Shown in pieces: positions 6,480-64,000 of a stretch of DNA of 64,000 nucleotides. The DNA lies in contig CASFEZ010000010.1 of NCBI GenBank assembly GCA_949293815.1, positions 36,089 through 100,088 of the forward strand, read 5' to 3'. Numbering within the stretch: the stretch's first letter is position 1; each line of letters opens with the position of its first letter. The translations under genes were made by a program, and so were the position numbers. A model generated the notes under the pieces. That model was not told the origin of the DNA. It saw nothing but the letters and a program-made list of their open reading frames with translations, and did no database searches. The DNA is from an uncultured Eubacteriales bacterium (GTDB lineage: Bacteria > Bacillota > Clostridia > Oscillospirales > Acutalibacteraceae).

Positions 6480-7811
6480 ATGTCCAGCTATGTCACACGA
6501 AAAACCCCCGGCAATACCGAATGGTTCCGGCACGACCGGTTCGGTATGTTTATCCACTTTGGGCTGTACGCCCTGCCCGCCCGGCACGAGTGGATTAAAA
6601 CCAATGAATTTATTTCAGAAGAAAAGTACAATGTGTACTTTGAAAACTTCCATCCCGATTTGTTTGATGCAAACGAATGGGCGCGCCAGGCCAAGGAAGC
6701 GGGCATGAAATACGCGGTTCTGACCACCAAGCACCACGAGGGCTTCTGCCTGTTTGATTCCCAATACACCGACTACAAAAGCACCAACACCCCCTTTGGG
6801 CGGGATTTGGTGCGCGAATATGTGGACGCGTTCCGTGCCGCAGGGCTGAAGATTGGCTTTTACTATTCGCTGATTGACTGGCACCATCCGTCTTTCCCCA
6901 TTGATAAATTACATCCCCGCCGCCGGGACGCCAATGCCGCCGAGCTGGACAAGGGGCGGGATATGCGCGTTTACGCCGAATATATGCGTAATCAGGTGCG
7001 GGAGCTTTTGACCAATTACGGGAAAATCGATATCCTGTGGTTTGATTTCTCCTATCCCACCGCCGGCGCAAACGAGGATGTGCAGCCCTGGATGCAGTAC
7101 GGCGGCTGTAAGGGCAAAGAGCAATGGGAATCGGAAAAGCTGATTGCCCTAGCGCGGGAATTGCAGCCGGGCATTATCATAGACAACCGGGCGGATATCG
7201 AGCAGGATTTGTGGACGCCCGAGCAGGTGCAGCCCACCCGCTGGCTCACCCACGAAAAAACCGGCGAGCTTGTCACCTGGGAAGCCTGCCAGACCTTTTC
7301 CGGCTCCTGGGGCTATTACCGGGACGAAATGACCTGGAAATCGCCGAAAATGCTGGTGGATATGCTGATTAACACCGTCTCTTTAGGCGGCAACCTTTTA
7401 ATGAATGTGGGACCGACGGCGCGGGGCTATTTCGACAAGCGCGCCCAAAACGCGCTGGCGGCCTACGGGGAATGGATGAAATACAACAGCGATTCCATTT
7501 ACGGCTGCACCATGGCCGAGCCGGAGTTCCGGGCGCCCGTCGGCACCCGCCTGACCCAGAGCGAAGACGGAAAACACCTGTACATTCACTTACAGGTCTA
7601 TCCGTTTGCGTTTTTGGAAATGCCGAACCTGGCAGGCAAAATCAAATACGCCCGCTTTTTGCATGACCACAGTGAAATTTTATACACCGAGGGCGGCACC
7701 GATAATTGGTGCACCGAGGGACAGAATTTAACAAAAGATGTGGTGGTGTTCCGGCTGCCGCATGTAAAACCGGATATCCTAACGCCGGTGATTGATGTGC
7801 TGCTAAAGTAA
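6480..7811 (+). CDS. Alpha-L-fucosidase, GH29 family, cytoplasmic
   Basis: This 443-residue enzyme should hydrolyse alpha-L-fucosides with retention. The family signatures are WFRHDRFGMFIHFGLY near the N-terminus, YAVLTTKHHEGFCLFDS (about 78), and WFDFSYP with probable nucleophile Asp189. SLGGNLLMNVGPTARG (about 300) matches the conserved GH29 barrel end. There is no signal peptide, so the substrate must be imported, consistent with the divergent GPH symporter nearby. The start is ATG 6480, six bases after TAGGAGG; an upstream in-frame start at 6432 has no such site. Mucin or milk-glycan fucose use is an inference. Confidence 0.92.
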   Translation: MSSYVTRKTPGNTEWFRHDRFGMFIHFGLYALPARHEWIKTNEFISEEKYNVYFENFHPDLFDANEWARQAKEAGMKYAVLTTKHHEGFCLFDSQYTDYKSTNTPFGRDLVREYVDAFRAAGLKIGFYYSLIDWHHPSFPIDKLHPRRRDANAAELDKGRDMRVYAEYMRNQVRELLTNYGKIDILWFDFSYPTAGANEDVQPWMQYGGCKGKEQWESEKLIALARELQPGIIIDNRADIEQDLWTPEQVQPTRWLTHEKTGELVTWEACQTFSGSWGYYRDEMTWKSPKMLVDMLINTVSLGGNLLMNVGPTARGYFDKRAQNALAAYGEWMKYNSDSIYGCTMAEPEFRAPVGTRLTQSEDGKHLYIHLQVYPFAFLEMPNLAGKIKYARFLHDHSEILYTEGGTDNWCTEGQNLTKDVVVFRLPHVKPDILTPVIDVLLK

Positions 7812-45585: not shown

Positions 45586-45614
45586 TTGACATCGTGCAAA
45601 AACACTGGTATACT
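45586..45614 (+). promoter_or_regulatory. Promoter of the second giant secreted protein
   Basis: TTGACA (45586-45591), 17-base spacer, TATACT (45609-45614). The DNA between the terminator and this box is empty. The 110-base leader (45615-45723) has an ATGCG..CGCAT inverted pair around a T run but no recognised riboswitch. Confidence 0.88.
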
Positions 45615-45723
45615 GGTACTGTATCATAGTATCACCATGCGTAATTTTGCGTCTTTTTTTCGCATCTTGGGTATGGGGGTATCTTTTGGAAACAAGAGCA
45701 CAAATCCCAAAGGAGGAATATTT

Positions 45724-48700: not shown

Positions 48701-51700
48701 CTGTTACCAATGCAACCAGCATTCCTGTTAATGTAACAAAGGCAAATCCGCTTGTGGATGCCCTGGTGCTGGAGAATGCTTCGATTACCTATGACCCCAC
48801 CAAGACCCTTTCTCAGTTCGAGACCTTAACGCCTGACACGGAGAATGGTGTTATCAAAGTCGTTGCTGCCGGCGACCGTCTGGCGGACGGCAGAGCTGCT
48901 ACTCCCGGTAAGTGGGTATGGAAAAACGACATAAAGCCCACTGTTAACCAGAGTGAGTATGTTGCTCAGTTCGTACCGGACGATAGCAACTACGGCAATG
49001 TGGAACAGACCGTTACCGTGCGTGTATCTCCTCTGACCATTACCGTTGGTGTTACCATGACGGATGTTTTCTATGGCGATGACCAGCCCGCGGGCAGCTA
49101 TGTATTCAGCGGCTTCCCCGATGGCTCTCCGGAGCGCATCAATTTCTCCGGCGGTCAGTTGAATGCGGTCGGCTTCTCGCTTTCAGGCAATGTGTATTAT
49201 GCTTGTGCCTATGATCCGACTTCCACCGATAATAAAGATGCGGGCACCTATCCCATCACGCTTACCAGCACCCTGACGGCTGATAACTATCGTTTTGTTG
49301 CCGACACGAGCTGCACCCTGACAGTTAAGCCCAAGGATCTGATTATTACACCCGCTACGAAAAACATCACTTACGGTACCTCCCTTCAGCAGAGCGATTT
49401 CAGCCTGACCATTACCGGCTTTGTCAGCGGTGATGAGACGCTGCAAGCAGAGCTGAACCCGGTATATGCGTATGATGTTTCTGCTACCACACCCGTTGGT
49501 GAATATCCGCTGACGGTCAGCTTTGCAAACGAGCTGCCAAACTATAACTTTGAAATTAATGAAGGCAAAATTGTCGTCAGCAAAGCGGTTGTTACCGTAC
49601 AGGCAGATGACATTGAAGTTCGTTACGGCAGTACCCCGAACTATACGTATACCTATAACGGCTTCAAGGGCACCGATGGCAATAACGTTGCCGATATCGT
49701 TACCGGCGCGCCCGTCCTGTCGTCGAACTATTCCATTTCCAGTGCGGCAGGCGAGACCTTCGCCATCGCGGTGAATGTCAATAATATGTCTGCCCGGAAC
49801 TATGCCTTTGTCGCCTCTGACCGTATCGCGATGCTGACCGTTCTGCCCGGCCGCGTAACCATTACAGGCAACCCGACCTATACCGTTGAAAACGGCAGAA
49901 CCCTTGCGGATGCCGTCATCGCCACCGAGGGCACCGCAGAGGATGCCCAGGGTAACCCCGTGGCAGGTACTTTCCGTATTGACAACCGCGATGCCATTCT
50001 GGAATATACGGGCAACTATACCGATGCGAATGTTGTCAATGTAACCTTCTATCCCAACGACCCGAACTACGAAACCGTTTCCACCACGGCGGAGGTTGAG
50101 GTTCAGCCTCGCGCAATCAGCGGTCAGCCCACCATTGAGGGTACGCTGATGGCGGGTAAAACCGTTACCGTAAATCTCGACTCCCTAGATCCCTCGGATA
50201 TGAGCTATTATGATGAAAGACGGGTTGTATGGTCTGTTGGTGGTGTCGAAACCACCGGCGGCTGGAGTCTGACGTTAGATAACGACGATGTGGGCGAAAC
50301 CGTCACCGTTACCGTTTATCCCTATGAGAACAGCGGCTTCAGCGGCAGCGCCACCTTTACTACCTCCATTCGTGTGTCTGCGTCCCTGCCGATTCCCGGC
50401 GTGGATCAGCTGATTATTTCGCAGGAAACGATTGAAGCAACCTACGATAAGCAGGCGCATCGTTTCGTTGTCAATAAAGCGGATCAAAGCATTGGCGATG
50501 TAACCGTTCGCTACAACGGCTCCACCAACGCGCCCACCGCGGCTGGTACCTATGTTATTACGGTTGATATCGGTTCTTCCGCCCTCTGGGCGCCGGTCTC
50601 CGGTCTGCGTGTCGGTACGCTGACCATTAACCCCAGACCGATTACCGTGGTATTTACCGCTGCCGATAAGACCTATGACGGCAAAACCAACGCCACCATC
50701 TCCGACTTTGACGCTTCCCAGGGCATCATTTCCGGCGATAATGTCTCTGTCAACCGCAGTGTGGCCAGCTTCGAATTTGTGGACGCCAACGCGGGCGACG
50801 GCATTGAAGTTGTCATGCGCTATGCTTACCTTGAGGGTACGGCGAGAGACAACTATGTTATCAGTCAGGATGCAGTTTACGCCAATATTTATCCGAAAGA
50901 AATCTCTGCGGTTGCCTATGCCACTGCACAGGACTACAATGAGAATAGCTACACCGTTAATGAAATTACTTTCGGCAGTCCCACCGGTGTTCTGGCAGCG
51001 GATAGAAACGGTATTACGCTGAACGCTACCACCGGAACCATGGGCAATAATGCCGCCGGTTCTCAGGATGTTACCTATATCGAGTACAACGGTGTTTTGA
51101 CCGGCAGCAAAGCGGGTAACTATGTGTTTACCGCCTCAAATGAAAGCACATTGAAAGTAACCATTCGCCAGATCACAGACCCGAACCTTGAGTATCCGGG
51201 GCAGATCGAGATTTCCTACAATTCCCTGCAGCGTCTGGACGATTTGTCCGGCGAGCTGCCCTATGGCTGGAGCTGGAATGACCCGACCATTGTGCCCACG
51301 GTTCGTGTCAAAATGTATGATGCAACTTATACACCCTCCAATCCGAGCTATAAGACCGAAACCTACCAGGTTGTCATCAATGTATCGCCTGTAGATGTTA
51401 CGGTTATTCCCGATTCTCATTCTATTGAGTACGGCTCCGCCGTGCCGAACCTGACCTATACGGTCGAGGGCTTCACCGGCGATGACGATGTAACCGATTG
51501 CTCCGGTATGATTATTATCCAAACGAATTATCAGCAGGGCAACGATATCACCGGCGCGGTTCCCTACCGTGTCTGGGTCAGCAGTTCCACTATTTCCAAC
51601 CCGAACTACAACTTTAACCTGCGGACAGAAGGTCAAATTGAAGTGACCAGACGTGCCTATACGGTAACGCCTTCGGCAGAAGATGTGGTTTATGACCCCA

Positions 51701-52527
51701 ATAACTACGATGTGCCTGTTACCTTTACCGGCAGCGGTGCTTATGTTGATCCGAATGCGGGCGAAGACGATGTTTACCTGAGCTATACCGAAACTATCGG
51801 TACTCTGAGCAACAACGATGCCGGTTCCCGTACTGTAACCTATACGCTGCCTACCCTGCAAGGTGCAAAGGCCGGCAACTATGAGCTTCGCGTCAGCGGT
51901 GCTGCGGTTCGTATCAATGTTTTGAAAGCGGATCCCATCGTCGTTTGGCCGACCTCAGCGGAAGTTGTCTATGGTCAGCGCTTCGATACAGCTGTGTTTG
52001 AAGGCGGCAGCGGCGAAGGAACATTTATGTTTGTCGATTCCTCCAGAGTTGCTTCCAGTCTCGACAGCGCTTACTATGAAGTCCGCTTCACACCGACCAA
52101 TTCCAACAACTATAACAGCCTGACCAACACAGTTCTGCTGCGCGTTACCCACGCAGATCTGAATATGTCCGTATCCATCAGCGGTACGCTCTATGAAGGT
52201 CAAACGCTGACCGCCGCGATCTCCGGTGTGCCGCAGGATGCATTGCAATACCTGCATTATGCATGGTATCGCGTTGCGGAAAACGGTACAGCTGTTCTGG
52301 TTAGCGACGCTTCAACCTATGAACTGGGCGCAAGCGACATCGGCTACTACATCCGATTGGAAGTTTCCGCCGACCCGACCGCTCCGTACTCCGGCGAAGC
52401 CTCTTTCACCACGGTACGCACCATTGAAGAAGAGCAGCTCACCTTCTGGCAGCGCCTGATGAAATGGTGGTACGCTATCCTTGCGGCTATCCAGAGCCTG
52501 TTTGATATCTCCATCTCCATCGGCTGA
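45724..52527 (+). CDS. Giant secreted protein: beta-helix-like N-terminus and tandem MBG/YDG repeats
   Basis: The protein is about 2267 residues. A signal segment (about 11-35) is followed by a beta-solenoid-like region (about 45-330, many INLTGYG and LNITGSGTLG rungs). At least ten MBG/YDG-type units follow from about 830 to 2150, marked by YGEELTLTADDF (833), YDGTNTVDIPF (922), YGTSLQQSDFSL (1216), YDGKTNATISDF (1650), YGSAVPNLTYTV (1902) and YGQRFDTAVFEG (2082). A last Ig-like unit leads to the tail LTFWQRLMKWWYAILAAIQS. There is no LPXTG. The start is GTG 45724 after AAAGGAGG; the longer frame from 45586 would start in the -35 box. Likely an adhesin or surface-layer component. Confidence 0.85.
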   Translation: MKVTRKSARALQALVIFVAIALVATAIPAVVYSNLPVAEAAAASVSTEADLRARLADADTTEITLTADINLTGYGATYHNAPRFTVPAGKTVELNLNGHSILWQEIHSGVGTGGGRGILASGNNDISNSGGYKYILIDNAGTLNITGSGTLGIDFQVTGITNDRNGSYNSSKYMHYAGVLTVIRNSGTLTIGSNVNINANLVYEVDSTNRSGGDIYVTLNGVYQTAGVVNASGNFTINIRTRPNYCDTLGYRSPGAGFSFAYGIYALGGVVNYNGASGKAIDIDVYTCLMASGGAATAYENCCLQLAAVGIFTSSPDSQIIGANIDCHIEYGDDYTDNLSSTNPIGKSVNNATAVGVQYSCSEPPVVGSGTNITTSTQVLANTQGDGSITKTTKPVNQTAEDPMNFMDLNGKTMPSYWGIDDNSSAPNMQTDQSETTTNNQYKDESGNIWTPSETDSALTGGIPPAQTNTYHKIMVAYRFYDTAHQLTNYYIASGDTDMSTAITLQNVNNGRVTLANNTSFAYTGGGAPKNEYFYNLSAITYNQVTNSGVATDWYTTTGGGMTIARNIDGEIQTVNPTVNVSAGQTTLIFVDYEAIPTDTLRVNLNNASALDMPVTEVEVEYTGTNLAFGSDILVHVYKCNSADDDPTAMYPYSNDIEVTDRFANIGSGTTSASFEVYNANGQLVQTDTLPSQPGTYTVKLILGGETTYNSNPASAMNFGATTFDFTLIIRPRNVTIEQIGIPELTYGQRLSALRSTDLAQYFKIDTGVPGLTASGTFEWVTPDVMPEVGERTYQLRWTNSQGLFETVVIDSVRVKVNGAPLTVTAKPKTVVYGEELTLTADDFIFSGLADVPGEAEAVFELIKNSVLVDGATYVPGQFNAGTHSYALSTSAAGSYTITNIAGELTISRASLTLTAPAVTKEYDGTNTVDIPFDASCVIAGLYDVYGADGVFVNTYTGATLANGGAVGSTTASVQISRFTLGGAKANNYTVGAVTNATSIPVNVTKANPLVDALVLENASITYDPTKTLSQFETLTPDTENGVIKVVAAGDRLADGRAATPGKWVWKNDIKPTVNQSEYVAQFVPDDSNYGNVEQTVTVRVSPLTITVGVTMTDVFYGDDQPAGSYVFSGFPDGSPERINFSGGQLNAVGFSLSGNVYYACAYDPTSTDNKDAGTYPITLTSTLTADNYRFVADTSCTLTVKPKDLIITPATKNITYGTSLQQSDFSLTITGFVSGDETLQAELNPVYAYDVSATTPVGEYPLTVSFANELPNYNFEINEGKIVVSKAVVTVQADDIEVRYGSTPNYTYTYNGFKGTDGNNVADIVTGAPVLSSNYSISSAAGETFAIAVNVNNMSARNYAFVASDRIAMLTVLPGRVTITGNPTYTVENGRTLADAVIATEGTAEDAQGNPVAGTFRIDNRDAILEYTGNYTDANVVNVTFYPNDPNYETVSTTAEVEVQPRAISGQPTIEGTLMAGKTVTVNLDSLDPSDMSYYDERRVVWSVGGVETTGGWSLTLDNDDVGETVTVTVYPYENSGFSGSATFTTSIRVSASLPIPGVDQLIISQETIEATYDKQAHRFVVNKADQSIGDVTVRYNGSTNAPTAAGTYVITVDIGSSALWAPVSGLRVGTLTINPRPITVVFTAADKTYDGKTNATISDFDASQGIISGDNVSVNRSVASFEFVDANAGDGIEVVMRYAYLEGTARDNYVISQDAVYANIYPKEISAVAYATAQDYNENSYTVNEITFGSPTGVLAADRNGITLNATTGTMGNNAAGSQDVTYIEYNGVLTGSKAGNYVFTASNESTLKVTIRQITDPNLEYPGQIEISYNSLQRLDDLSGELPYGWSWNDPTIVPTVRVKMYDATYTPSNPSYKTETYQVVINVSPVDVTVIPDSHSIEYGSAVPNLTYTVEGFTGDDDVTDCSGMIIIQTNYQQGNDITGAVPYRVWVSSSTISNPNYNFNLRTEGQIEVTRRAYTVTPSAEDVVYDPNNYDVPVTFTGSGAYVDPNAGEDDVYLSYTETIGTLSNNDAGSRTVTYTLPTLQGAKAGNYELRVSGAAVRINVLKADPIVVWPTSAEVVYGQRFDTAVFEGGSGEGTFMFVDSSRVASSLDSAYYEVRFTPTNSNNYNSLTNTVLLRVTHADLNMSVSISGTLYEGQTLTAAISGVPQDALQYLHYAWYRVAENGTAVLVSDASTYELGASDIGYYIRLEVSADPTAPYSGEASFTTVRTIEEEQLTFWQRLMKWWYAILAAIQSLFDISISIG

Positions 52528-52714: not shown

Positions 52715-53230
52715 GTGAGGCGTGTGAAATTGGGACTGAAAATTTCGGGAATGCTCATTGTCGGTCTGGTCGTAGCTGCTGTTATATATCCGATAATACA
52801 TGAGCTGGGGCATTTACTGACAGCAGAAATGATGGGCGCAGAAAGCATTGACATACATTGGGGCGAACAATCGCACTATATATGTTCTTTGCCATCCTGT
52901 AAAATGCAAACCGTACCTGTGATTTGTCTGGGCGGATATGCTTTACCCACCGCACTTGCGGCGCTGCCGGTGCATAAAGGGTTTTTTATGTGGTATGCAA
53001 ATTTTATGATGAAAATTGTATGTATATGGGCTGCGATATTGTCAATCCTTACCGTGATGCAGACAACAATCGGTTCTGTGAATACAAACAATGACATTTC
53101 CCTGATTCTGCAAATCGAACCGGCGCAGCAAGCATGGTTATTTCTGTTTTTTGCAGCAGTGATTATCCTGTTAATCAGTCAACTGCTTCAGACGCATCCG
53201 CTTGCAAAGATATGCGATTATTTGATGTAG
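52715..53230 (+). CDS. Mini M50-like membrane metalloprotease
   Basis: The protein is up to 171 residues with about four membrane spans. The first span ends in YPIIHELGHLL, an HExxH zinc site (His29, Glu30, His33) embedded in the membrane edge as in site-2 type (M50) proteases. A short loop holds two cysteines (CSLPSC), and GGYALPTALAALP begins the next helix. The third zinc ligand could not be assigned. Start choice is uncertain: GTG 52715, GTG 52724 and TTG 52730 are all in frame near one GTGAGG site. It stands alone between the second giant gene and the FHA operon, with AT-rich codon use. Confidence 0.65.
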   Translation: MRRVKLGLKISGMLIVGLVVAAVIYPIIHELGHLLTAEMMGAESIDIHWGEQSHYICSLPSCKMQTVPVICLGGYALPTALAALPVHKGFFMWYANFMMKIVCIWAAILSILTVMQTTIGSVNTNNDISLILQIEPAQQAWLFLFFAAVIILLISQLLQTHPLAKICDYLM

Positions 53231-53650: not shown

Positions 53651-55159
53651 TTGAATAAAATCATACTCGATGAAAACAAAATGTTTATTTATATGCCCGA
53701 TAAAGTTCAGATAGATATCGATAGATTAAATGATTTAGCTTCGCATAAATATAAAGAACTATGTCATTGCTGTTATATTAAAGTAGGCAGCAAACACCAA
53801 TTCACCTATGATATTCACAGAATGCACAGCGTTAAACAAATAGCGGAAAACAATCCGATGTTTTCTATTGTGAACCTGGTTGCCGATCTGGCAGGGCAAA
53901 TGCGACGAGCCGATGCGCGGGGACTTCAACTGTTTAACTTCTGTTGGGATCCCAAATACATTTTTTTTGACGGCTATCAATATCAATATATTTATTTACC
54001 GGTTGTGCGCCAGAAGACCTGTAGCGTGAAAAAAATCTTCACTCATATCATAAAAAGCCTCGCAAAAAAAGATCCGCGCTGCCGCATATTGCTTCGGCAG
54101 CTCAAACAGGTTTCGCACGACAATGATGTGCTTCTTCTGATTGAAAGTATTGCAGCCGGTGAAACCGCGATGCCGTCGGGGGAGTTCGATATTTCTCTGT
54201 CCGAGCGTGAGACCTCGTTGTTATCAGATCCGGGCGACTATCAGCCGGCGCCCGCAGACGCGGTCAGGATGACCGACACATATGCGCAGAATGCGGCGCC
54301 TGTTAACGAAACAGTGCTGCTTTTTCGCCAAACAGATGAACGAGGTCAGGAAATAAACGAAACAGCCCTGTTTCCCGACCGCAGGGAGGGTGAGCAGCCT
54401 TTGTCCGGAGAGGACTTTTCCTGCCGAGAGGATGTCGATGGGGAAAACCTGTCGGAGTGTGAAACATCGCTGCTCACACCGCCGGAAGAGCAAGCAGTAT
54501 TCTTTGCTGCGCGGGAAGAAGGAGAAAAAGGGGAAGAGCCTCTGCCGTCAAAAAATGCACAGCAGTCCCCGTCGGCGCCTCCGGTGTCAATGGCGGAGGA
54601 TAATTCTGCCGAAAGAACAGCTGCGGCAAATGAGCGTATCATGTCCGTTCCCGATATCGGCAGCGACCGAAGTGCGTCCCCGCCGCCACTGGCGCATCAA
54701 AACAACATGACCGTCGATGATGAAGCGCCGAACCTGTCCAATCCCGGAACGACAGAACTCCATTCTGACGGTCTTGCCGAGTGCGAAACAACATTGCTGA
54801 CGGAAGATGTTGATTTTGAGGCTTTACGCAAGCACACAACATCTGACCATGAGCCGGGCGTTTGGTTGATTTTGAAAAACAATTTAACCGGTCAGCGGAT
54901 CCGTGTGGAAAAATCTGTTTTTAAAATAGGCAAACAGGCCGGATTTGTTGATTATGTATCCACCAACGCCAGCGTCAGCCGCTTGCACGCAACGATTGTT
55001 TGTGAGGATGAACACTACTATGTTGTCGATGAGGCCTCTACCAACGGCACCATGATCGAGGGCGTGCGCATTCGGCCGCACGAAAAAATTGAATTAAAAG
55101 ACGGTATGCTCATCGCATTCGGAAACGAAAGTTTCATCATCAGAATAGGGAAAGGGTAA
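53651..55159 (+). CDS. FHA-domain protein with DUF6382-like N-terminus and repeated E-T-x-L-L/F motifs
   Basis: The protein has 502 residues, with no signal peptide and no clear membrane span. The N-terminal 170 residues resemble DUF6382 as found in front of clostridial FHA domains (YDIHRMHSVKQI, then FFDGYQYQYIYLP). The 230-residue linker is acidic and Pro/Ser-rich. It holds five E-T-x-L-L/F motifs with threonines at about 188, 221, 238, 272 and 380. The C-terminal FHA domain (about 400-500) has FKIGKQ, SVSRLHATI and STNGTMIEG, the pThr-binding loops. The start is TTG 53651, after AGGAGG. It heads an operon with the phosphatase (7 bases) and kinase. Linker phosphorylation read by its own FHA domain is inference. 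Confidence 0.85.
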   Translation: MNKIILDENKMFIYMPDKVQIDIDRLNDLASHKYKELCHCCYIKVGSKHQFTYDIHRMHSVKQIAENNPMFSIVNLVADLAGQMRRADARGLQLFNFCWDPKYIFFDGYQYQYIYLPVVRQKTCSVKKIFTHIIKSLAKKDPRCRILLRQLKQVSHDNDVLLLIESIAAGETAMPSGEFDISLSERETSLLSDPGDYQPAPADAVRMTDTYAQNAAPVNETVLLFRQTDERGQEINETALFPDRREGEQPLSGEDFSCREDVDGENLSECETSLLTPPEEQAVFFAAREEGEKGEEPLPSKNAQQSPSAPPVSMAEDNSAERTAAANERIMSVPDIGSDRSASPPPLAHQNNMTVDDEAPNLSNPGTTELHSDGLAECETTLLTEDVDFEALRKHTTSDHEPGVWLILKNNLTGQRIRVEKSVFKIGKQAGFVDYVSTNASVSRLHATIVCEDEHYYVVDEASTNGTMIEGVRIRPHEKIELKDGMLIAFGNESFIIRIGKG

Positions 55160-55166
55160 TGGCCAT

Positions 55167-55940
55167 ATGCAATTTTTGTCATCTACACACACCGATGTCG
55201 GCATCGCTAAAAAAATCAACCAGGATGCTTTTTGTTTAAAAATTGCAAAAACGCCGAAATATCACATTGCCATGGCAGTGTTGTGCGATGGTATGGGTGG
55301 ATTAAAATGTGGCGAGTTGGCCAGTGCGTTTGTTGTCAATGCGTTTTCAAACTGGTTTGAAGATGAGCTTCCTGCAATGGCACTGCAGGAGATTGATTTG
55401 TCAAAAATCATGCAGCAATGGCGCACCCTGGCATTGGAGCAGGGGCAGAAAATCATGAAATACGGTGCGGCGCACAATATTTCACTGGGCACAACGCTCA
55501 GCGCACTTTTGATTGTCAATTCAGAATATGTTTTAATCCAGGTAGGCGATAGCCGTATTTACAAAAACAGCGGCGGTGCCTTTGAACAGCTGACGCGGGA
55601 TCACACGCTGGTTGCCCACGAGGTGGAGCTGCATCATTTGACGCAGGAGCAGGCACGTACGGATAGCCGCCGTAATGTTTTGCTGCAATGTATCGGCGCT
55701 TCCAAAACCATTGTTCCGGATGTTGAGCGCGGCTATGTAAACGAAAACGATGTGTTCCTGCTTTGCAGCGACGGGTTTCGACATGAAATTACCGAAAACG
55801 AAATGCTCGGTGTGCTGTCCTCTCCATTGCTGACCAGTGAAAAGGTGATGAAAAAGAGCTTGGTTGATCTTGTGGAGCTGAATAAGGCGCGCAAGGAAAA
55901 AGATAATATTACCGCAATACTTATCAAAGCGATTCGATAA
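55167..55940 (+). CDS. PP2C-family Ser/Thr protein phosphatase
   Basis: The 257-residue protein has the bacterial PrpC/Stp pattern: TDVGIAKKINQDAF, VLCDGMGG (metal aspartate), SLGTTLSALLI, QVGDSRIY, LLCSDGFRHEI and KDNITAILI. The opening motif has Lys-Ile where DxGxxRxxNQD normally keeps Arg. It is cytoplasmic. The gene lies between the FHA protein and the kinase, the usual trio, and should reverse the kinase's threonine phosphorylation. The kinase start follows 15 bases after its stop. Confidence 0.92.
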   Translation: MQFLSSTHTDVGIAKKINQDAFCLKIAKTPKYHIAMAVLCDGMGGLKCGELASAFVVNAFSNWFEDELPAMALQEIDLSKIMQQWRTLALEQGQKIMKYGAAHNISLGTTLSALLIVNSEYVLIQVGDSRIYKNSGGAFEQLTRDHTLVAHEVELHHLTQEQARTDSRRNVLLQCIGASKTIVPDVERGYVNENDVFLLCSDGFRHEITENEMLGVLSSPLLTSEKVMKKSLVDLVELNKARKEKDNITAILIKAIR

Positions 55941-55955
55941 AAGGAGGAATTCGCC

Positions 55956-57806
55956 ATGGCCCGTAGAGGCGAGGTTATTGATGGAAAATATGAAATCCTC
56001 CGCGAAATCGGACGCGGCGGTATGTCCGTTGTTTATCTGGCGATGGATAAGCGGTTAAATAAACAGTGGGCAATCAAAGAATTCCGCAAGGACAAAGACG
56101 ATGTCAGCAAGCAGATTGCCTTAAAGGCATTGATGGACGAAGCTGCCCTGATGAAAAAGCTGGATCATCCGACTCTGCCGCGTATTGTCGATATTATTGA
56201 TGTACATGATACGGTCTATATTGTTATGGACTATATCGAAGGCGAATCCCTGAACAAAGTTCTCGCCGAATACGGTGCGCAGCCGCAGGAGGCTGTTATT
56301 GAATGGGCAAAACAGCTGTGCGATGTTTTGGACTATCTGCACACGCAAAACCCCCCGATTATCTACCGGGATATGAAGCCGGCCAATATTATGTTAAAGC
56401 CGGATGGTACCATTCGCCTAATCGACTTTGGTATCGCCCGTGAATATAAGGAGGGAAAAGAAGGCGATACAGAGGCCATCGGCACCAGGGGGTATGCAGC
56501 GCCCGAGCAATTCGGCGGCCACGGTCAAACCGATGCGCGCACCGATATATACAGCCTGGGCGTAACGCTGTATCACCTGGTAACCGGCAAAAACCCGGCG
56601 GAGCCCCCCTATGAAATTTATCCGATTCGCCATTGGAACCCGTCGCTTTCAAGCGGTCTGGAATGGCTGATTTCCAAATGTACCCAGCTGAACCCGAACG
56701 ACCGCTACCAGTCCTGCGCTGAGGTTGCTTATGTGCTTGATAACTTAGAAAAATTCGAGGTTACTTATAAGAAAAAGCAAAAAAGCCGTGTCAACCTCTT
56801 TATTGTAACTGCTGTTTTAGCGTTGGTATTCGCGGTGTCCTCTGTCAGCAGTTTCTTGGGCGACCGCGCCTTGCAAAGAAGCAATTATGACGCCAATCTT
56901 TCCCTGGATACCTACCAGGGATATCAAACCGCCATCGCCTCGGACGACAGCACGGCAACGGCATATCTGCTGCTGGTGCAAAAAATGCGTGACGATGTCA
57001 TGACCATCGGCACCGCCGCTTACCAGGAAGAAACCATGAACACCCAGTTAGAGGAGGAAATGTCCGTTAACTATATTCAATCCGTTTTTTCCAATGAACA
57101 TTTGGCGAGCCTGCGGGAAAACGATGTGAATGCCTATGTACAGGTCAACTACGAAATTGGTCGCCTGTTGTGGAACACATTCAAAGGCAGCACCGGCACC
57201 GACCAGGAGCCTGCCACCCAGGCCAGACCCTATTTTGAACGGGTTATAGAAACAGTGGGCACGGCGGACCCGAGTCAGTTCGGTTTAACAGATCAAAAAT
57301 ACAATCTGGCCAGGTCCTACTATCTGGTAACCTATTTCCAATACAAGCTCCATCAGATGAGCCTGAATAAAAACAGCGGTACCGATGACGGTGCTTTTAC
57401 CCCGGAGGATGCGGCCATTGTTGCCGGTATTTATACCGACGGCGCCAACAACACCATCGACAATATCTATTATTCCTATTGGCGTACCTGTAAGGAGCAT
57501 TTGCAGCTTTTGGCGTCGGATGATTTGGATATGTCCACCGCGGCAAAGCTGGAGTCGCTGAGCCGCCTGGCGTATATTCTTTTGTCAACCTATCCCCAGT
57601 TCCGTACGCAGACAGCCAATAAAGAAGAAACCGTGGATGTCGCCGAATGGCAGGATATGATTGATGCTTTTTCCCGGGCCCTTGCGCATGTGCAGGCGGT
57701 TGAAAACGATGAAATCACCCGTTTGAACGAAATTAAAACGACACTGAATCAAACCATCACAGAGGTTAACGCCGCATATAACAGTCAACTGGAGGCCATT
57801 GCGTAA
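55956..57806 (+). CDS. Transmembrane Ser/Thr protein kinase with unusual external domain
   Basis: The 616-residue protein has a Hanks-type kinase domain at about 10-265. The glycine loop is IGRGGMSVVY, the lysine is Lys41 (AIKEF), the catalytic loop YRDMKPAN (Asp139) has Tyr for the usual His, and the metal Asp157 is in IDFGIAR. APEQFGGHGQTDARTDIYSLG closes the activation segment. One span lies at about 281-303. The external 310 residues are helical, possibly TPR-like, and carry no PASTA repeats. AAAGGAGG precedes the ATG. Its TAATG overlap with the next gene shows tight coupling. Likely substrates are the FHA protein and operon neighbours. Confidence 0.92.
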   Translation: MARRGEVIDGKYEILREIGRGGMSVVYLAMDKRLNKQWAIKEFRKDKDDVSKQIALKALMDEAALMKKLDHPTLPRIVDIIDVHDTVYIVMDYIEGESLNKVLAEYGAQPQEAVIEWAKQLCDVLDYLHTQNPPIIYRDMKPANIMLKPDGTIRLIDFGIAREYKEGKEGDTEAIGTRGYAAPEQFGGHGQTDARTDIYSLGVTLYHLVTGKNPAEPPYEIYPIRHWNPSLSSGLEWLISKCTQLNPNDRYQSCAEVAYVLDNLEKFEVTYKKKQKSRVNLFIVTAVLALVFAVSSVSSFLGDRALQRSNYDANLSLDTYQGYQTAIASDDSTATAYLLLVQKMRDDVMTIGTAAYQEETMNTQLEEEMSVNYIQSVFSNEHLASLRENDVNAYVQVNYEIGRLLWNTFKGSTGTDQEPATQARPYFERVIETVGTADPSQFGLTDQKYNLARSYYLVTYFQYKLHQMSLNKNSGTDDGAFTPEDAAIVAGIYTDGANNTIDNIYYSYWRTCKEHLQLLASDDLDMSTAAKLESLSRLAYILLSTYPQFRTQTANKEETVDVAEWQDMIDAFSRALAHVQAVENDEITRLNEIKTTLNQTITEVNAAYNSQLEAIA

Positions 57807-58210
57807 TGAATAGTGTTTTCTTTATTATCGGAATCATCTGCGCTGTCTTTGCTGTTTGTTTCTTTGCGGCCGCCGTTGCCATGTTCTTCGGATTCAAAAT
57901 TCCGACACTGGTAAAGGATATGCGCGGTACATTGGAACAAAAGCAGATTGAAGAAATCCGCAGCAAGAACAGCAGCGCCATTCGCCAGCGAAGAAAAGTG
58001 AATGTTTTCGAAGAACTGGAGCGCAATGCCAAGGTAAAGCGCGGCACCACGCAAAGTTTGGGGTTGAACCCATCAACCTATACCCGCCGAAAAAATAACC
58101 CGTCCCCGGAGAGCGGTACATCGGTTTTGAATCGGTCTAACAAAAATATCAATCCAAATTTTGTTATAGAGAAGAACATTGTTGTGGTTAGTACAAACGA
58201 GGTGATATAA
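57806..58210 (+). CDS. Small membrane protein of the kinase operon, function unknown
   Basis: The protein has 134 residues. One N-terminal span (about 4-28, Ala/Phe/Val-rich) is followed by a basic, polar cytoplasmic or external tail with charged helix DMRGTLEQKQIEEIRSK and Thr/Ser-rich RGTTQSLGLNPSTYTRRK. Its ATG overlaps the kinase stop (TAATG), and the next gene starts 4 bases after its own stop. I do not recognise a family. The Thr/Ser stretch makes it a plausible kinase substrate, but that is speculation. Confidence 0.75.
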   Translation: MNSVFFIIGIICAVFAVCFFAAAVAMFFGFKIPTLVKDMRGTLEQKQIEEIRSKNSSAIRQRRKVNVFEELERNAKVKRGTTQSLGLNPSTYTRRKNNPSPESGTSVLNRSNKNINPNFVIEKNIVVVSTNEVI

Positions 58211-58213
58211 AGA

Positions 58214-58738
58214 ATGAAAGTCAACAAAAAAAGAGCCTTACTTTGGGGATATGTGGCAAGCTCGTTGGTGCTATCGGCAAGCTTTCTGCTGATGCCGCTG
58301 GATTTGATTACCTCCAGCGTGCGCAGAAGCAGCCTGGTCGCAGGCATTCTTTTTTGGGTTAGCCTTGCCGCCACCCTGATAACTGCCGGTTGGCTGGCAA
58401 GAATTTACAGAAGGTGGCGCTCAAAACTGCCGGACGCGGTTTCCTCAGGTCTGCCCAAATTGCCCGGTATTATCCGGTTTTTTCGAAACCCATTGGCGCT
58501 TGCAGCGGACATTGTGATGCTGATAAGCCTGATTGGCTTGATTGCTTCGCTGATAGCAACCGATGCTTCCGGGTACATATGTTACATTTTTATAGCCTTG
58601 TTTGTATTTTCGTTTTGCATGCATTGTATGCTGAACGGTAAAATATATTATTCACTAACGCATCGCAACACGCCGGCAAAGAGCAATGCTGCTGCGGTGG
58701 CGGAAGATCTAAGTAAAGGAGCAGAAAAGCATGAGTAA
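58214..58738 (+). CDS. Four-span membrane protein of the kinase operon, function unknown
   Basis: The protein has 174 residues with hydrophobic segments at about 9-27, 42-62, 91-112 and 119-140, and basic loops (ARIYRRWRSK) between them. No family was recognised. The start lies 4 bases after the previous stop, and the last 8 bases overlap the next gene, whose AAAGGAG site lies inside this gene. It is therefore translated as part of the chain kinase, small membrane protein, this protein, giant Ig-like protein. Confidence 0.75.
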   Translation: MKVNKKRALLWGYVASSLVLSASFLLMPLDLITSSVRRSSLVAGILFWVSLAATLITAGWLARIYRRWRSKLPDAVSSGLPKLPGIIRFFRNPLALAADIVMLISLIGLIASLIATDASGYICYIFIALFVFSFCMHCMLNGKIYYSLTHRNTPAKSNAAAVAEDLSKGAEKHE

Positions 58739-61700
58739 AACGAAGTTTCGCTTGACCGACAGAGTCCTTGCTGTCATCATGGCAATTATGATGACGGTAA
58801 GCATGCTGCCGACTTCAGTCATTGCCTCCGCAACCGGCGGCAGCGACACGGAAGAACGCTTTACCCTTTATGTGGTCGATTCGGCGAATCAGCCCATTGA
58901 GGGTGCACAAGTTAACTATTCCGTTCAGGGCAAAGATGTTGAACCAATTACCGGCAGTGAGACATCTGGTGCTGACGGCACGGTTGCGCTGGATGTACTT
59001 GTAAGCGAGGTGGCAAACGGCACTTACACCACATTAAGCGCAACGGTAAGCAAGGACGGATACGAAATACGGGAGGTAACAGAGCAATCCATTGCCAATA
59101 CAACTTCCTATGAAGTAGAGCTGCTTGAGAATAAGCTGACCGGAGTTGAGGTTACGCCGACCAATGTGGTATATGACGGCAATCCGCATCCGGCTGCCGT
59201 GGTTAGCGGTACACTTCCGACGGATGTGGTGACCTATCGGCTGGGTGAGGCAGCCGCTACTACGGATATGCCTCAAATCACGGAGGCTGGGGAATACACA
59301 TTGACCGTCACAGTGCAAAGGGATGGGTATCAAACTTACACAAACACCGTCTATCCCGAAATCATTCCTGCAAAGATTGCACTGACTGTTACTCCTTATA
59401 GTGAAGAATATGATGGCGCAGAGCACCCGGCAGTAGCGGTCGAGGGCATTCTTGCAGGTGATACCGTAACCTATCAGTTGGGCGACAACGAACCGTCCAA
59501 TGAGATTCCCATGCTCCAAAATGTGGGTAAGTATACGGTCAAAATAGAGGTAACCCGCGCCAACCACGAAAAATATAGTGCCTCCTTTACCGCCGAGATC
59601 ACCGCAGCGAATATTGAGGGCATTTCGGTTCAGGCCGATGGCTGGACATATGACGGCGAAGCGCACCAAGCGGTTTCCGTTGTCGGTGCCCAAGATGGCG
59701 ATATCGTTGAGTATAACCTGAACAATCAAGGATGGACGACAAGCGTGCCGTCGCTGACGGATGCTGGTACATACAATATCGATGTTAGAATCACAAGAGA
59801 GAACTATGCTGATTTAACCATTCATGCAACGGTTTCCGTAGCAAAAGCCGAACAGGAACTGGCTTTTGCCGATGAGAACTATGGTGTCAACGGAGATGCG
59901 GTGATCAATGATCTTACCATATCTGCTCTCCACAATGAAACCACGCCTGTTACCTATGACTTTTCTGCTATAGATACAAATAAGCTGGCAGACGGTGAAA
60001 TCACCTATTCTGTATTGCTGTCTGAAGAGGATGCCGGAATTGCCGCAATCGATGAAGCGACCGGTTTATTGACAGTTACCGACCCTGGTCGTATTCTCAT
60101 TCGGGCGACGCTTTCCAGTAAGAATCCCAACTACAACCCTTGTGAAATCTCATACGAGCTGCGGATTGTTGCCAAAGCGGATGAGCAGGGGGATTTCCTG
60201 ACCTTTGAATCGCCGACAGCAGAGTATGTTTTGGGCGCAAAGGATGGTCAGGTTTCTGCTTCTGTGGCTACGAAAGTATATGCCGATGCTGACGACGGCG
60301 TTGTTACCTACAGTATCGATAAAACCGATATCGGCATTGTTTGTGATGCCAATACCGGTGCGTTGACCGTCAACGATTATGAAGCGCTGGCAGCGGCGAT
60401 TCAGGCTGCCGCAGCCAATGAAGAGGAAGCGGCAAGAGAATTGACCGTTACCATAACGGCGGAAAAAGCCGCCGGAACAAAATACGGGGCGGACCAAGCT
60501 TCTTATGAATTGACAATCGACTTTGCTGCTGCTCCGCAGAATCCGTATACACTGACACCGGATGCCCCCAACGGCGAAAACGGCTGGTACAAAAACACGG
60601 TTACTGTCACACCGGCTGAGGGCTATCAGGCTGCCAAAACGCTGCCCGAAAAACTGACCGCCGCTGCGTTTTCGGATACGCTGACCTTCAGCGAAGCGGA
60701 CTTAACCGCGGACAACGGCTATGAGCTCTATCTGCGCAATGAAACCACCGGCGAGATTACCGATGCCGTTGCGGTCGATATGCAAATCGATACCGCCGCC
60801 CCCTATAGCATTACAATCGAACATTCAAAATCTCTGTTTGAGAAAGTCCTTGAGGGCGTGACTTTTGGTTTCTATCAGCCCGATGTTACCTTAACCTTTA
60901 CGGCTACTGATGATATTTCCGGAGTCGCACAGTTTGATTGGGCATTAATGAACGGCGATTCCGCTCTCGAAAGCGGCACGGTTGCTGCTACAGCCCAGGA
61001 GGACGGCACCTATACTGCCGAAGTAAAAATTGCAGAAAAAGAACAGCAGCTTCTGGAAGGCATTGTCAGTGTAACGGCAAAGGATATCGCCGGGAATACT
61101 GCCAAAAAAGAGGGCGACTTTACAGTTGTTCTGGATAGATTAGCGCCGAATTTTGTGGCTGAGTATACGGAGCCGAGCAATACCCAGCAGACAGAGGGTG
61201 GAGAGGTTCTCTATTATCAGGATGTTATGGGTGATGGCGTTACCTTTGAAGCGCAAATTACCGAACGTTTCTTTGAGGCATCGCAGGTAACGGTTTCCAT
61301 GACGCATAACGGTCGGCTGGTACAGGCGACGCCTGAGTGGACGGTGAGTGCAGAATCGCCGGATTTACATATTGGCACGCTGCGCATGACAGAGGAAGGC
61401 AGCTACGAAATTTCAATTTCCTATAAAGATGAAAGCGGCAATGCGATGACAGACAGCGAAGGGAACACCACCTTTACATATCAATTTGTCATCGACAGAA
61501 CCGATCCGGCTTTGACGGCGGCATATTCCGAGTCGTCTCAGCGTCTGACGGTGACCGTAGACGAAACCAATTTTACGCCGGCATCCTTTATTGTCGTGCC
61601 GACGGGTGACAATCTTGCGACCGATATTGCTGGCAATGCAGTGGAAAATGCCCTGGATTTGCAGACCTATCTGCGGGAAGAAGACTGGATGGTTGTTAAT

Positions 61701-64000
61701 GGTGTACACACCATCACCGTTCCGTTTTCTGAAGAATACGACGGCAAGTATGATTTTACGATAAAATACTCTGACCTTTCCGGTCGTGAGACGACCTCTG
61801 CCGCACAGAACTTTGCTGCGGACCATGCGGCACCCTATGATGTAAGCATTTCCTATGCCGAGCCGTTGAACTCTAAAGTTCTGGATGCCATTACATTTGG
61901 TTATTATCAGCAAGAGGTAGCAATCACCTTTACTGCCCACGATGTGGTAACCGGTGTGGAATCCTTTGTCTGGTCCTATATGCCGGAGGACGGGAAAGGC
62001 AATATTACCGACCTGACCCCCTATCAGGCGCAGGTGGTCGCGGCCATTCAGGATGTAAACGACCCCACCCTGTTTACGGCGACTGTTACCCTGCCGATTG
62101 AGGATTATAACGAGGATCAGCTGCACGGCAGCTTCTCCTGCTATGCGGTGGATAACGGGGGCAATAAATCGGCAGAATATACCGATGAAAATAATGTCAT
62201 TGTCCGCGATACCATAGCGCCGGAGCTGGAGGTGGTCTATTCGCCGGATCAGCGTGTTGATAAAAATACCTATGTCGATATCCCGGCGGATGCCGACGAT
62301 ACCGACGATATGATCCTGCTCCACAAGGACAGCGCTGTTATCGGTTTGACCATAACGGAAGAAAATTTTGACAGCACGGAGGTCAAGGTGACCGTCAGCA
62401 AGGACGGCACTCTGATGGAGGACCAGCCCGCCGTTGACTGGAACGGAAATGCCGGCACCCTGACCCTTGAAGAGGAAGGCAGTTACCAGTTTACGGTTGC
62501 ATACACCGATTCTTCCGAAAATCCGATGGATACGTACACGTCACCGGAGCTGCGGGTGGATAAAACCGACCCGGTTATCACCGTTACCTGGGACAAAGAG
62601 AACGATGCCGCGGCAGCGAATGCCGATTGCTACCAGTCCCGCACCATGACGGTGACCGTTGAAGAGAAAAATTTCCGCGCATCTGATTTTAAAGTAACCG
62701 CGCAGCTGCTGGATGTTACCGGTGCCCCGGTGGCAAATGCTGGTGATTTGCTTACGGCAATACAGGCGCATTTTGCAGAAAGCAGCAATTGGAACAGAGA
62801 GGACAATCGGTATACTGCAAGTTATGAACTGCCGGAAGCGGTGATCTCCGATTTGCAGTTGGCCTGTTCTGACATGCTGGATTGGCATAGTGAACAATTG
62901 ATAGAAACCTTTACGGTTGATCATACCGGTTCGGAGATTCTGGATATAACATACAGCGAGCCGAAAACAACCGAGGAGATTGCAGAGGCCCTTACGCTTG
63001 GCTTCTATCAGGCAAAAGCAATTGTGACTGTACGCGCAACGGATGCAATTTCCGGCGTAAATACAATTGAATGGAGCTATGCCCGCCAAGAAGGGGCAAG
63101 CGCCACTAACGAAGAATCGCTTTCCGGCACCGCTGTTGCCGTTCCTGAATCTGAGGGATCCTCGATCTATGTTGCTGAAATCTCACTTCCCGAAGAGGAG
63201 GCGCAACAGCTTAGAGGCTCACTGACGGTACGTGCAAAGGATCGCGCTGCCAATTCCGGTGCTCCGTATACAGACGGCAGCAAGATCATCGTTGTGGATA
63301 CCATTGCGCCGGAACTGGAGGTATCCTATTCAGAAGCCTTTTTGACAGACAAAGACGGCGCTGCGCTGCAAACGGTTCCCGAGGATGGCGAATATGTCCT
63401 GAACTATGCAACAGATTTCATCGCTACGCTGAATGTGAACGAAGCCAACTTCTATACAGATGACATTACCGTTTCGGTCACCAAGAACGGTGAGCCGATG
63501 GCCGATAGTCCCGTAATTAAGTGGGCTGACAGCAATACCGATGAGCATCAGGGCACCTTTACCATTTCGGGTGCAGGCATATATTATATTACCATTGAAG
63601 CTGAAGACCATTCGGGCAACACCGCAAGCTATACATCCCCGGAAATTCGTATAGATATGACGCCGCCGGAAATCAATGTTGTCTTTGCCGAGGATGAAAC
63701 AGCGTACAACGATTATTATTATAATTTAACCCGCAAGGCAACCGTGTCTATTACCGAAGAACACTTCGATCCCGAAAAAGTTACGATTGATGTCACGGCT
63801 AAGGATATTGCAGGCGATGCGGTTGATATGGAGCAGACCATTGAAGATGCACTCAACGAGCAGCTGCACGCGGCGGAAAAATGGAGCAGTGAGGGTGATG
63901 TACACAGCATCGAGCTTGCCTTCTCCACAGATGCGCGGTACGCTTTCACCGTATACTGCAGTGATATTGTCAATAATAATGCGGAACCGTGGAATTCCGA
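58731..64000 (+). CDS. Giant secreted Ig-like repeat protein (partial, runs off the window)
   Basis: The frame is open for 1756 codons from ATG 58731 to the window end. A signal segment (about 10-34) precedes a CnaB-like domain (about 45-135). Three YDG units of about 80 residues follow (YDGNPHP about 147, YDGAEHP about 226, YDGEAHQ about 306). A long array then repeats with a period of about 345-365 residues, marked by TFGFYQ (about 711), TFGYYQ (about 1055) and TLGFYQ (about 1422). Each period holds several Ig-like folds opening with D-T-x-A-P or D-x-T-D-P. AAAGGAG lies 10 bases before the ATG, and the start overlaps the upstream gene by 8 bases. Probably a surface adhesin under control of the kinase operon; the anchor lies beyond the window. 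Confidence 0.88.
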   Translation, partial: MSKTKFRLTDRVLAVIMAIMMTVSMLPTSVIASATGGSDTEERFTLYVVDSANQPIEGAQVNYSVQGKDVEPITGSETSGADGTVALDVLVSEVANGTYTTLSATVSKDGYEIREVTEQSIANTTSYEVELLENKLTGVEVTPTNVVYDGNPHPAAVVSGTLPTDVVTYRLGEAAATTDMPQITEAGEYTLTVTVQRDGYQTYTNTVYPEIIPAKIALTVTPYSEEYDGAEHPAVAVEGILAGDTVTYQLGDNEPSNEIPMLQNVGKYTVKIEVTRANHEKYSASFTAEITAANIEGISVQADGWTYDGEAHQAVSVVGAQDGDIVEYNLNNQGWTTSVPSLTDAGTYNIDVRITRENYADLTIHATVSVAKAEQELAFADENYGVNGDAVINDLTISALHNETTPVTYDFSAIDTNKLADGEITYSVLLSEEDAGIAAIDEATGLLTVTDPGRILIRATLSSKNPNYNPCEISYELRIVAKADEQGDFLTFESPTAEYVLGAKDGQVSASVATKVYADADDGVVTYSIDKTDIGIVCDANTGALTVNDYEALAAAIQAAAANEEEAARELTVTITAEKAAGTKYGADQASYELTIDFAAAPQNPYTLTPDAPNGENGWYKNTVTVTPAEGYQAAKTLPEKLTAAAFSDTLTFSEADLTADNGYELYLRNETTGEITDAVAVDMQIDTAAPYSITIEHSKSLFEKVLEGVTFGFYQPDVTLTFTATDDISGVAQFDWALMNGDSALESGTVAATAQEDGTYTAEVKIAEKEQQLLEGIVSVTAKDIAGNTAKKEGDFTVVLDRLAPNFVAEYTEPSNTQQTEGGEVLYYQDVMGDGVTFEAQITERFFEASQVTVSMTHNGRLVQATPEWTVSAESPDLHIGTLRMTEEGSYEISISYKDESGNAMTDSEGNTTFTYQFVIDRTDPALTAAYSESSQRLTVTVDETNFTPASFIVVPTGDNLATDIAGNAVENALDLQTYLREEDWMVVNGVHTITVPFSEEYDGKYDFTIKYSDLSGRETTSAAQNFAADHAAPYDVSISYAEPLNSKVLDAITFGYYQQEVAITFTAHDVVTGVESFVWSYMPEDGKGNITDLTPYQAQVVAAIQDVNDPTLFTATVTLPIEDYNEDQLHGSFSCYAVDNGGNKSAEYTDENNVIVRDTIAPELEVVYSPDQRVDKNTYVDIPADADDTDDMILLHKDSAVIGLTITEENFDSTEVKVTVSKDGTLMEDQPAVDWNGNAGTLTLEEEGSYQFTVAYTDSSENPMDTYTSPELRVDKTDPVITVTWDKENDAAAANADCYQSRTMTVTVEEKNFRASDFKVTAQLLDVTGAPVANAGDLLTAIQAHFAESSNWNREDNRYTASYELPEAVISDLQLACSDMLDWHSEQLIETFTVDHTGSEILDITYSEPKTTEEIAEALTLGFYQAKAIVTVRATDAISGVNTIEWSYARQEGASATNEESLSGTAVAVPESEGSSIYVAEISLPEEEAQQLRGSLTVRAKDRAANSGAPYTDGSKIIVVDTIAPELEVSYSEAFLTDKDGAALQTVPEDGEYVLNYATDFIATLNVNEANFYTDDITVSVTKNGEPMADSPVIKWADSNTDEHQGTFTISGAGIYYITIEAEDHSGNTASYTSPEIRIDMTPPEINVVFAEDETAYNDYYYNLTRKATVSITEEHFDPEKVTIDVTAKDIAGDAVDMEQTIEDALNEQLHAAEKWSSEGDVHSIELAFSTDARYAFTVYCSDIVNNNAEPWNS

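Follow-up and report, generated by a model that had tools for sequence, protein, structure and literature searches.

The window analyzed here is a stretch of 64,000 nucleotides from an uncultured Eubacteriales bacterium (contig CASFEZ010000010.1 of assembly GCA_949293815.1), and our subject is a gene cluster near its end whose first gene encodes a protein, J, in which an N-terminal DUF6382 domain is joined to a C-terminal forkhead-associated (FHA) domain by a long linker with five short Thr motifs. We found that a small membrane protein of the same cluster, K, bears the same type of motif in its tail, and that in relatives the motif recurs at a fixed distance before the FHA domain of J, with a strong preference for Thr. 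The sequence anatomy, the conservation of the motif, its Thr specificity, its sharing between J and K, and the folds predicted for the domains of J are our observations. From the sequences and the structural models, we consider it probable, with moderate confidence, that the locus encodes a kinase-set cis/trans switch in which the FHA domain of J would choose between the J linker and the K tail. What is new here is the K-tail motif shared with the J linker; the gene content of the cassette is already known from Garrett et al. (2024; PMC11217815), whose gene letters we use. The names K, H, and I were assigned by position and anatomy, and the neighbors of the cassette were identified with purpose-built hidden Markov models (HMMs).

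A repeated Thr motif in the linker of J

The initial annotation had placed five E-T-x-L-[LF] motifs in the linker of J, at T188, T221, T238, T272, and T380, and we recovered all five at exactly these residues, each with Leu or Phe at +3. In 200,000 composition-preserving shuffles of residues 161 to 410, the strict motif occurred at most twice (mean 0.025) and none reached five, a result that overstates the surprise because the pattern was picked after seeing the window sequence; the looser pattern E-T-x-[LIVMF]-[LIVMF] reached a maximum of four copies (mean 0.10). Codons for the same residues vary among the five DNA copies of the motif, so they do not represent a recent exact duplication. Window J qualifies for the DUF6382-FHA (TseJ-type) class, with the DUF6382 domain at the N terminus and the FHA domain at the C terminus, both above the Pfam cut-offs. 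AlphaFold modeled both domains with confidence and predicted residues 176 to 400 of the linker to be disordered.

Conservation and Thr specificity of the FHA-proximal motif

We assembled a first set of DUF6382 proteins from genomes of the window's family and class, comprising 141 loci (140 plus the window) and leaving out five plus two weak DUF6382 matches. There was no open reading frame (ORF) bearing both domains at 14 of the 141 loci; of the 128 proteins with DUF6382 and FHA, five had linkers shorter than 60 aa and were dropped, and 123 were counted. The motif T-x-[VILMF]-[VILMF] was present between 45 and 8 residues before the FHA start in 88 of these 123 proteins, compared with about 16 expected and a maximum of 26 in 500 shuffles, and 67 of the FHA-proximal motifs fall at −25 to −21. 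Ser in place of Thr was not enriched (15/123 against 17.2 expected). The remaining linker showed a small excess of the motif (89 against 68 expected, the largest of 500 shuffles also giving 89), and no excess when E or D was required before the Thr (9 against 8.2 expected).

A second set came from named genomes searched with an alignment as the query, and gave 80 loci and 64 proteins, 60 of them with long linkers; as the query was derived from the first sets, this is a separate sample and not an independent design. The FHA-proximal motif was found in 43 of the 60 proteins (9.5 expected, maximum 19 in 300 shuffles), with Ser in 5 against 7.1 expected. Four of the 60 were already in the first sets, and removing them left 41 of 56 with the motif (9.1 expected, maximum 20 in 500 shuffles) and Ser in 5 of 56 against 6.2 expected. 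FHA proteins without DUF6382 from the same second-set loci showed no excess (4/22 against 2.5 expected).

Alignment of window J with 16 cassette relatives (from the 18 loci having a K protein, with L245 left out) left T380 and L383 as the sole invariant linker columns, in agreement with the earlier suggestion that the motifs outlast an otherwise unconserved linker, at least for the FHA-proximal site. In a wider alignment of 34 rows these columns were not invariant; the T380 column held Thr in 29 of 34 rows (three had gaps) and the L383 column held Leu in 26 of 34.

The number of motifs varies widely. Among 208 nonredundant J linkers, T-x-[VIL]-[LI] sites were absent from 61, single in 62, double in 56, and present at least three times in 29, with a range of 0 to 10. 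With a restriction on the residue preceding the Thr, at least three copies remained in 16 of the 208, the window and 15 others, and these 15 arrays give indirect backing to the four distal sites of the window. The largest arrays are those of loci L293 (10 copies at a 9-residue period) and L290 (eight copies); within the window's family, L249, L250, L255, L266, and L063 have three or four copies and L247 has three dispersed ones. The window array is thus among the larger ones and is not unique.

We looked for close orthologues of window J in which the four distal sites could be compared, and found none. DUF6382 was not detected in six congeners of the window organism, a protein search of the genus returned, beyond the protein itself, matches to the FHA region only, and a single-protein scan of genome contigs, which may omit the window's own genome, gave no close J orthologue. 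The best identity to window J in the tree set was 29%, and FastTree placed it on a long branch with no supported neighbors.

Membrane protein K carries the same motif

The gene directly after the kinase encodes a protein with the anatomy of TseK, that is, one N-terminal membrane helix, inferred from hydrophobicity, followed by a cytoplasmic tail. We searched for its counterparts with a purpose-built HMM of the N-terminal 85 residues, to which window K, which is also one of the seeds, scores 92.5 bits. The first sets yielded 18 K proteins and the named set another 22 under 350 aa, and every one (18/18 and 22/22) is encoded directly after a kinase. T-x-[VIL]-[LI] occurs in 38 of 39 nonredundant K tails, the sole exception being that of L308, and the 169 sites compare with 12.8 expected and a maximum of 24 in 500 shuffles; Ser at the Thr position occurs 7 times against 10.4 expected. 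Taken alone, the named set, none of whose K tails is shared with the first set, has the motif in 21 of 22 tails, with 114 sites where 7.9 were expected. No excess of the motif was seen in the PP2C, H-like, or I-like proteins of these loci. The sharing of the motif between J and K suggests that the kinase sets a switch acting on a surface or secretion machine.

A second Thr motif, of the HTDEVI type and typically [HS]T[DN]E[VI]I, lies at the C terminus of K, in 35 of 39 tails by a loose pattern that also allows Ser. The window copy is STNEVI, with the T130 codon at 58193–58195.

Within K tails that have several sites, Thr stands at +1 in 16 of 34 last repeats and in 19 of 131 others, a difference reached in 0 of 5000 within-protein permutations; no such difference is present in J linkers (40/85 and 47/135; 969 of 5000 permutations). 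As a side observation, in the tails of L061, L300, L301, L302, L309, and L315 the last repeat reads T-T-V-L and most earlier ones T-[EDQ]-V-L, as if there were two classes of site. Copy numbers in J and K are inversely related across 34 paired loci (Spearman −0.34, p 0.05), a borderline result that is not corrected for phylogeny and counts four of the window's five J sites. Arrays tend to be concentrated in one partner, with J/K counts of 10/1 at L293, 8/3 at L290, and 5/1 in the window, and the reverse at L301 (2/10) and L309 (2/9). At L237 (J at 5980–7506), both J and the small ORF after the kinase carry K-[KM]-T-T-V-L, with basic residues where others have acidic ones; the FHA pocket of that J has Ala in place of Arg or Lys, and the small ORF was missed by the K model.

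The FHA domain of J as the candidate reader

The best Foldseek matches of the FHA model include 3poa (from a study of phosphothreonine interaction), 6i2p (GarA with PknB), 3oun (FhaA), and 6hc1, the DgcB FHA domain with its own phosphopeptide. The canonical phosphothreonine (pThr) pocket of FHA domains consists of Arg, Ser, and Asn. Among the 208 J proteins, the first two pocket positions are Lys-Ser in 92, Arg-Gly in 67, and Arg-Ser in 23, and Lys-Gly does not occur. The motif is present in 127 of 180 J proteins with an intact pocket (Arg/Lys, Ser/Gly, Asn) and in 6 of 28 with a broken one (Fisher p 1e-6, not corrected for phylogeny). Separately, we noted that a basic residue preceding the Thr goes mainly with Arg-Gly pockets (16/22).

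The initial annotation had noted that FHA domains often select a hydrophobic residue at +3. The peptides that OdhI, GarA, and DgcB read in themselves have hydrophobic residues at −3, +2, and +3, Glu at −2, and Ser at +1 (PMC6733907), and the J motifs agree with them in spacing and at +2 and +3, which is in line with that expectation.

A proposed switch between the J linker and the K tail

We propose that the kinase would phosphorylate the Thr of E-T-x-[LV]-L-type motifs in the J linker and in the cytoplasmic tail of K, that the PP2C phosphatase would remove these phosphates from both proteins, and that the FHA domain of J would bind pThr with Leu at +3. Binding to its own linker, above all at T380, which lies at an OdhI-like distance, would close J, whereas binding to the K tail would keep J, together with its EssB-like pseudokinase domain, at the membrane. 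Having several sites on each partner would raise the local concentration, and the number of phosphates would set the balance. We infer the phosphorylation, the kinase responsible for it, the FHA binding, the switching, and the output from the sequences and models described here. The initial annotation had read the linker as a multisite switch whose phosphorylated threonines bind the FHA domain in cis or in a neighboring molecule. The conservation of the FHA-proximal T380, the position and Thr specificity of the motif in two sets of relatives, and its co-occurrence with intact pockets partly support this reading; the motif in K had been missed, and because K bears it, binding in trans to this membrane anchor appears no less likely than binding in cis or in a homopolymer.

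Several results weigh against the proposed switch. The window K tail has one site only (SGTSVLN, T105), and the kinases of these loci show a mild motif excess too (20 against 9.2 expected, maximum 16 in 100 shuffles). The window pocket is Lys, Ser, and Asn, with Lys where Arg is expected, and 67 of the 208 J proteins have Gly at the place of the canonical Ser. The motif is missing from 53 of the 180 J proteins with intact pockets, and the joint loss of pocket and motif leaves five supported independent pairs on a poorly resolved tree, so that the association is not confirmed. Glu is mostly at −1 in the J motifs and at −2 in the known self-peptides, and the J motifs have no clear preference at −3. 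Charged residues at the Thr place are also in small excess in the first set (E 34 against 22, R 23 against 9.6, D 23 against 14.4), probably owing in part to their occurrence just before the Thr. AlphaFold leaves the motifs unordered, though no phosphate is modeled. A neighboring kinase is not required: in the first two sets, 104 J proteins have no kinase or PP2C within 3 kb, and 63 of them still bear the motif. Finally, a secretion machine was not found in the window genome at the thresholds used.

The alternative that survives best, although we think it unlikely, is that the motifs serve assembly in trans only, with the FHA domains of an EssC-type ATPase or a second DUF6382-FHA protein reading the J linker and the K tail, and the FHA domain of J reading some other target, such as the activation loop of the kinase. 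Candidate readers do exist, since EssC with a sub-threshold FHA match lies downstream in one relative and a second DUF6382-FHA protein, itself lacking the motif, lies downstream in two, and Garrett et al. report conserved pThr residues in the FHA domains of TseC (PMC11217815). However, the peak of the motif at a fixed distance from J's own FHA domain points to that domain as the reader, the motif is rare where J's own pocket is broken, and EssC was not found in the window genome.

We assign a small chance to the possibility that the motif acts without being phosphorylated, either structurally, as a strand packed on the FHA or DUF6382 domain, or as a docking site for the kinase. Packing of a short hydrophobic motif in a constant position need not depend on phosphate, the FHA domain of DgcB also binds its unphosphorylated tail (PMC6733907), and the kinase-like fold predicted for DUF6382 could hold a peptide; against this, the preference for Thr is strong, with no enrichment of Ser in linkers or tails, and the model has no ordered strand at the motifs. 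It is highly improbable that the repeats are a neutral low-complexity expansion. The model does show disordered linkers, linker length varies, and the L293 array is regularly spaced, but the Thr-specific excess over composition-matched shuffles is strong, it is found in both J and K of one cluster and is absent from PP2C, H, and I, and the window copies differ in codons.

A bolder version of the proposed switch, which we offer tentatively and with some doubt, is that J and K might form a multivalent phospho-scaffold. Arrays of up to 10 similar pThr motifs would be divided between J, the FHA reader with its EssB-like pseudokinase head, and K, the membrane anchor, and copies could pass freely between the two. 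Kinase activity would drive a bistable crosslinking, tuned by copy number, that collects the secretion or surface machine in clusters at the membrane.

Predicted fold of the DUF6382 domain

A separate AlphaFold model of the DUF6382 domain had a mean pLDDT of 94, and in Foldseek it matched 8cba (TraF of pIP501) at E 1.1e-5, 4ano (EssB) at 1.7e-3, and 6z0f (YukC) at 3.2e-3. The TMq was 0.65 for 4ano and 0.66 for 6z0f, both EssB cytoplasmic fragments, and sequence identity to the matches was 8 to 14%. Active kinases such as ASK1 matched at E 1.8e-3 and weaker. The model is firmly kinase-like and is predicted to be closest to the TraF and EssB pseudokinases, EssB-like being the nearest named kind; because ordinary kinases match at E-values like those of EssB and YukC, the safe wording is "kinase-like, closest to TraF and EssB."

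In Bacillus subtilis, YukC uses its pseudokinase domain to bind the ATPase at the FHA region, apparently without phosphorylation (PMC9600267). EssB and YukC belong to the T7SSb type VII secretion system (T7SS); J differs from them in that its DUF6382 domain is joined through a motif-bearing linker to an FHA domain, and in having no evident membrane helix. By analogy, J may be a soluble EssB-like adaptor with a phospho-controlled tether.

Gene cluster and type VII secretion context

The genes for J, PP2C, kinase, K, H, and I form one cluster in the window (Table 1), and the contig ends at the window end, where it cuts the I gene. The initial annotation had the kinase and PP2C genes following J at once; both do adjoin J, with PP2C preceding the kinase, and the cassette continues past 57806 with K. 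The kinase has a hydrophobic segment near residues 279 to 301 and a C-terminal part beyond it.

Table 1. Coordinates (positions in the window) of the J-to-I genes and of the domains and motifs of J
Feature	Position	Strand	Description
J protein	53651..55159	+	502 aa, TTG start; DUF6382, linker with five E-T-x-L-[LF] motifs (predicted disordered), FHA
DUF6382 domain	53651..54160	+	residues 1-170; Pfam 29-157, above Pfam cut-off
Motif 1, ETSLL (T188)	54209..54223	+	
Motif 2, ETVLL (T221)	54308..54322	+	
Motif 3, ETALF (T238)	54359..54373	+	
Motif 4, ETSLL (T272)	54461..54475	+	
Motif 5, ETTLL (T380)	54785..54799	+	FHA-proximal conserved site
FHA domain	54854..55150	+	residues 402-500; Pfam FHA 425-491, above Pfam cut-off; pocket K (of GK), S (of SRLH), N (of NGT)
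PP2C-type phosphatase (F)	55167..55940	+	PF13672 (PP2C_2) E 2.5e-16; NF033484 170 bits, below cut-off 230
Ser/Thr kinase (D)	55956..57806	+	PF00069 E 1.5e-54; kinase domain 12-252, RDMKPAN, DFG
K protein	57806..58210	+	N-terminal hydrophobic (membrane) segment, tail with SGTSVLN (T105), C-terminal STNEVI (T130); HMM and motif scan
H-like small membrane protein	58214..58738	+	position and hydrophobicity; no Pfam or NCBIfam family; relatives' counterparts about 150-170 aa
I-like large protein	58731..63998	+	weak Ig-like and OmpL47-type matches; cut by contig end

This gene content is the same as that of J, F, D, K, H, and I in the T7SSe and T7SSj subtypes of Garrett et al., namely a DUF6382-FHA protein, a PP2C phosphatase, a membrane kinase, a single-transmembrane protein, a small membrane protein, and a large Ig-type protein (PMC11217815). 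EssC, YukD, or WXG100 lies nearby in some relatives. The two stretches L063 and L064 of one genome together carry J, PP2C, kinase, K, H, I (large and cut), a second DUF6382-FHA protein, a 344-aa protein, YukD, and EssC, the last scoring 1168 bits against a cut-off of 778. In L250 the genes match this order as far as the second DUF6382-FHA protein, after which comes the start of an ORF that resembles the EssC of L063/L064, and L301 and L315 have WXG100 proteins upstream of J. These arrangements resemble the list of T7SSe components of Garrett et al. (PMC11217815), and in these relatives the switch would probably have a type VII secretion machine as its client.

The assembly of the window genome is 96% complete, and in it neither an EssC/FtsK-type ATPase (TseC; a single TIGR03928 match of 124 bits, cut-off 778) nor WXG100 (PF06013, 0 matches) was found. 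We considered the window locus as a full T7SS member and rejected this since EssC and WXG100 were not found; it is the same signaling cassette as in the relatives, with the machine missing or unassembled.

Other features were noted in passing. Upstream of J, the window encodes giant proteins of 1889 aa with a Big_2 domain (39732–45401) and of 2313 aa with MBG and YDG domains (45586–52527). A 171-aa hydrophobic protein without a Pfam family (52715–53230) has a HELGH motif, which we take to resemble that of a zinc peptidase. Elsewhere in the same genome (G000:C1:7761-21893, loci L229 and L230) is a separate FHA cluster encoding VWA-FHA, kinase-FHA, and DUF4234-FHA proteins, an M4 peptidase with VWA and FHA domains, and a DUF5684-FHA protein; two FHA proteins of this cluster have a T-x-h-h sequence (h, hydrophobic) 26 and 38 residues before the FHA domain. 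Among relatives with no kinase or PP2C nearby, L086, L092, L101, and others encode DUF6382-FHA proteins with D-[RK]-T-V-[IL]-L about 23 residues before the FHA domain.

Comparison with known systems

The arrangement of J recalls OdhI and GarA of Actinobacteria, which also have a Thr motif N-terminal to the FHA domain that is phosphorylated by Ser/Thr kinases, read in cis, and reversed by a phosphatase. The FHA domain of OdhI spans residues 43 to 143 and binds its own phosphorylated T14/T15 (PMC2784874). T15 of OdhI thus lies 28 residues before the FHA domain, near the J peak at −21 to −25. OdhI differs from J in having 143 residues, one motif region, and no DUF6382 domain, and in regulating metabolism. 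To our knowledge, OdhI has no membrane partner that shares its motif. Window J does not belong to the OdhI/GarA family by NF041660, to which it scores 18.7 bits (cut-off 200). The FHA domain of Bdellovibrio DgcB, whose structure 6hc1 matched the J FHA model, likewise reads its own phosphorylated N-terminal tail; DgcB differs in having a single site and a GGDEF output.

In the Thr phosphorylation pathway of type VI secretion systems (PpkA, PppA, and Fha1 or TssL), a kinase, a phosphatase, and an FHA protein similarly control a secretion machine. In Agrobacterium, Fha reads the membrane protein TssL phosphorylated at T14, and in Pseudomonas the phosphate is on Fha1 itself; according to Lin et al., the two phosphorylations, of Fha and of TssL, had not been identified in one and the same organism. 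That pathway differs in its FHA protein and its machine, and here J and K both bear the motif, often as arrays.

For the cassette itself, Garrett et al. describe TseK as having a short unstructured cytoplasmic stretch, and the available part of their paper makes no mention of a repeated Thr motif or of an EssB-like DUF6382 fold (PMC11217815). We found no report, in the open-licence literature, of the motif that J and K share.

Implications

Garrett et al. raise control by the kinase and phosphatase as a possibility for the new T7SS subtypes (PMC11217815). Through the motif they have in common, J and K are marked as likely partners, and its threonines as likely phosphosites. If DUF6382 is indeed an EssB-like pseudokinase, this would suggest how systems without EssB might contact their ATPase. 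If the arrays are multivalent switches, their natural variation up to 10 copies would be a ready series for relating site number to response, and the phospho-scaffold, if true, would be a bacterial counterpart of phosphorylation-driven condensates.

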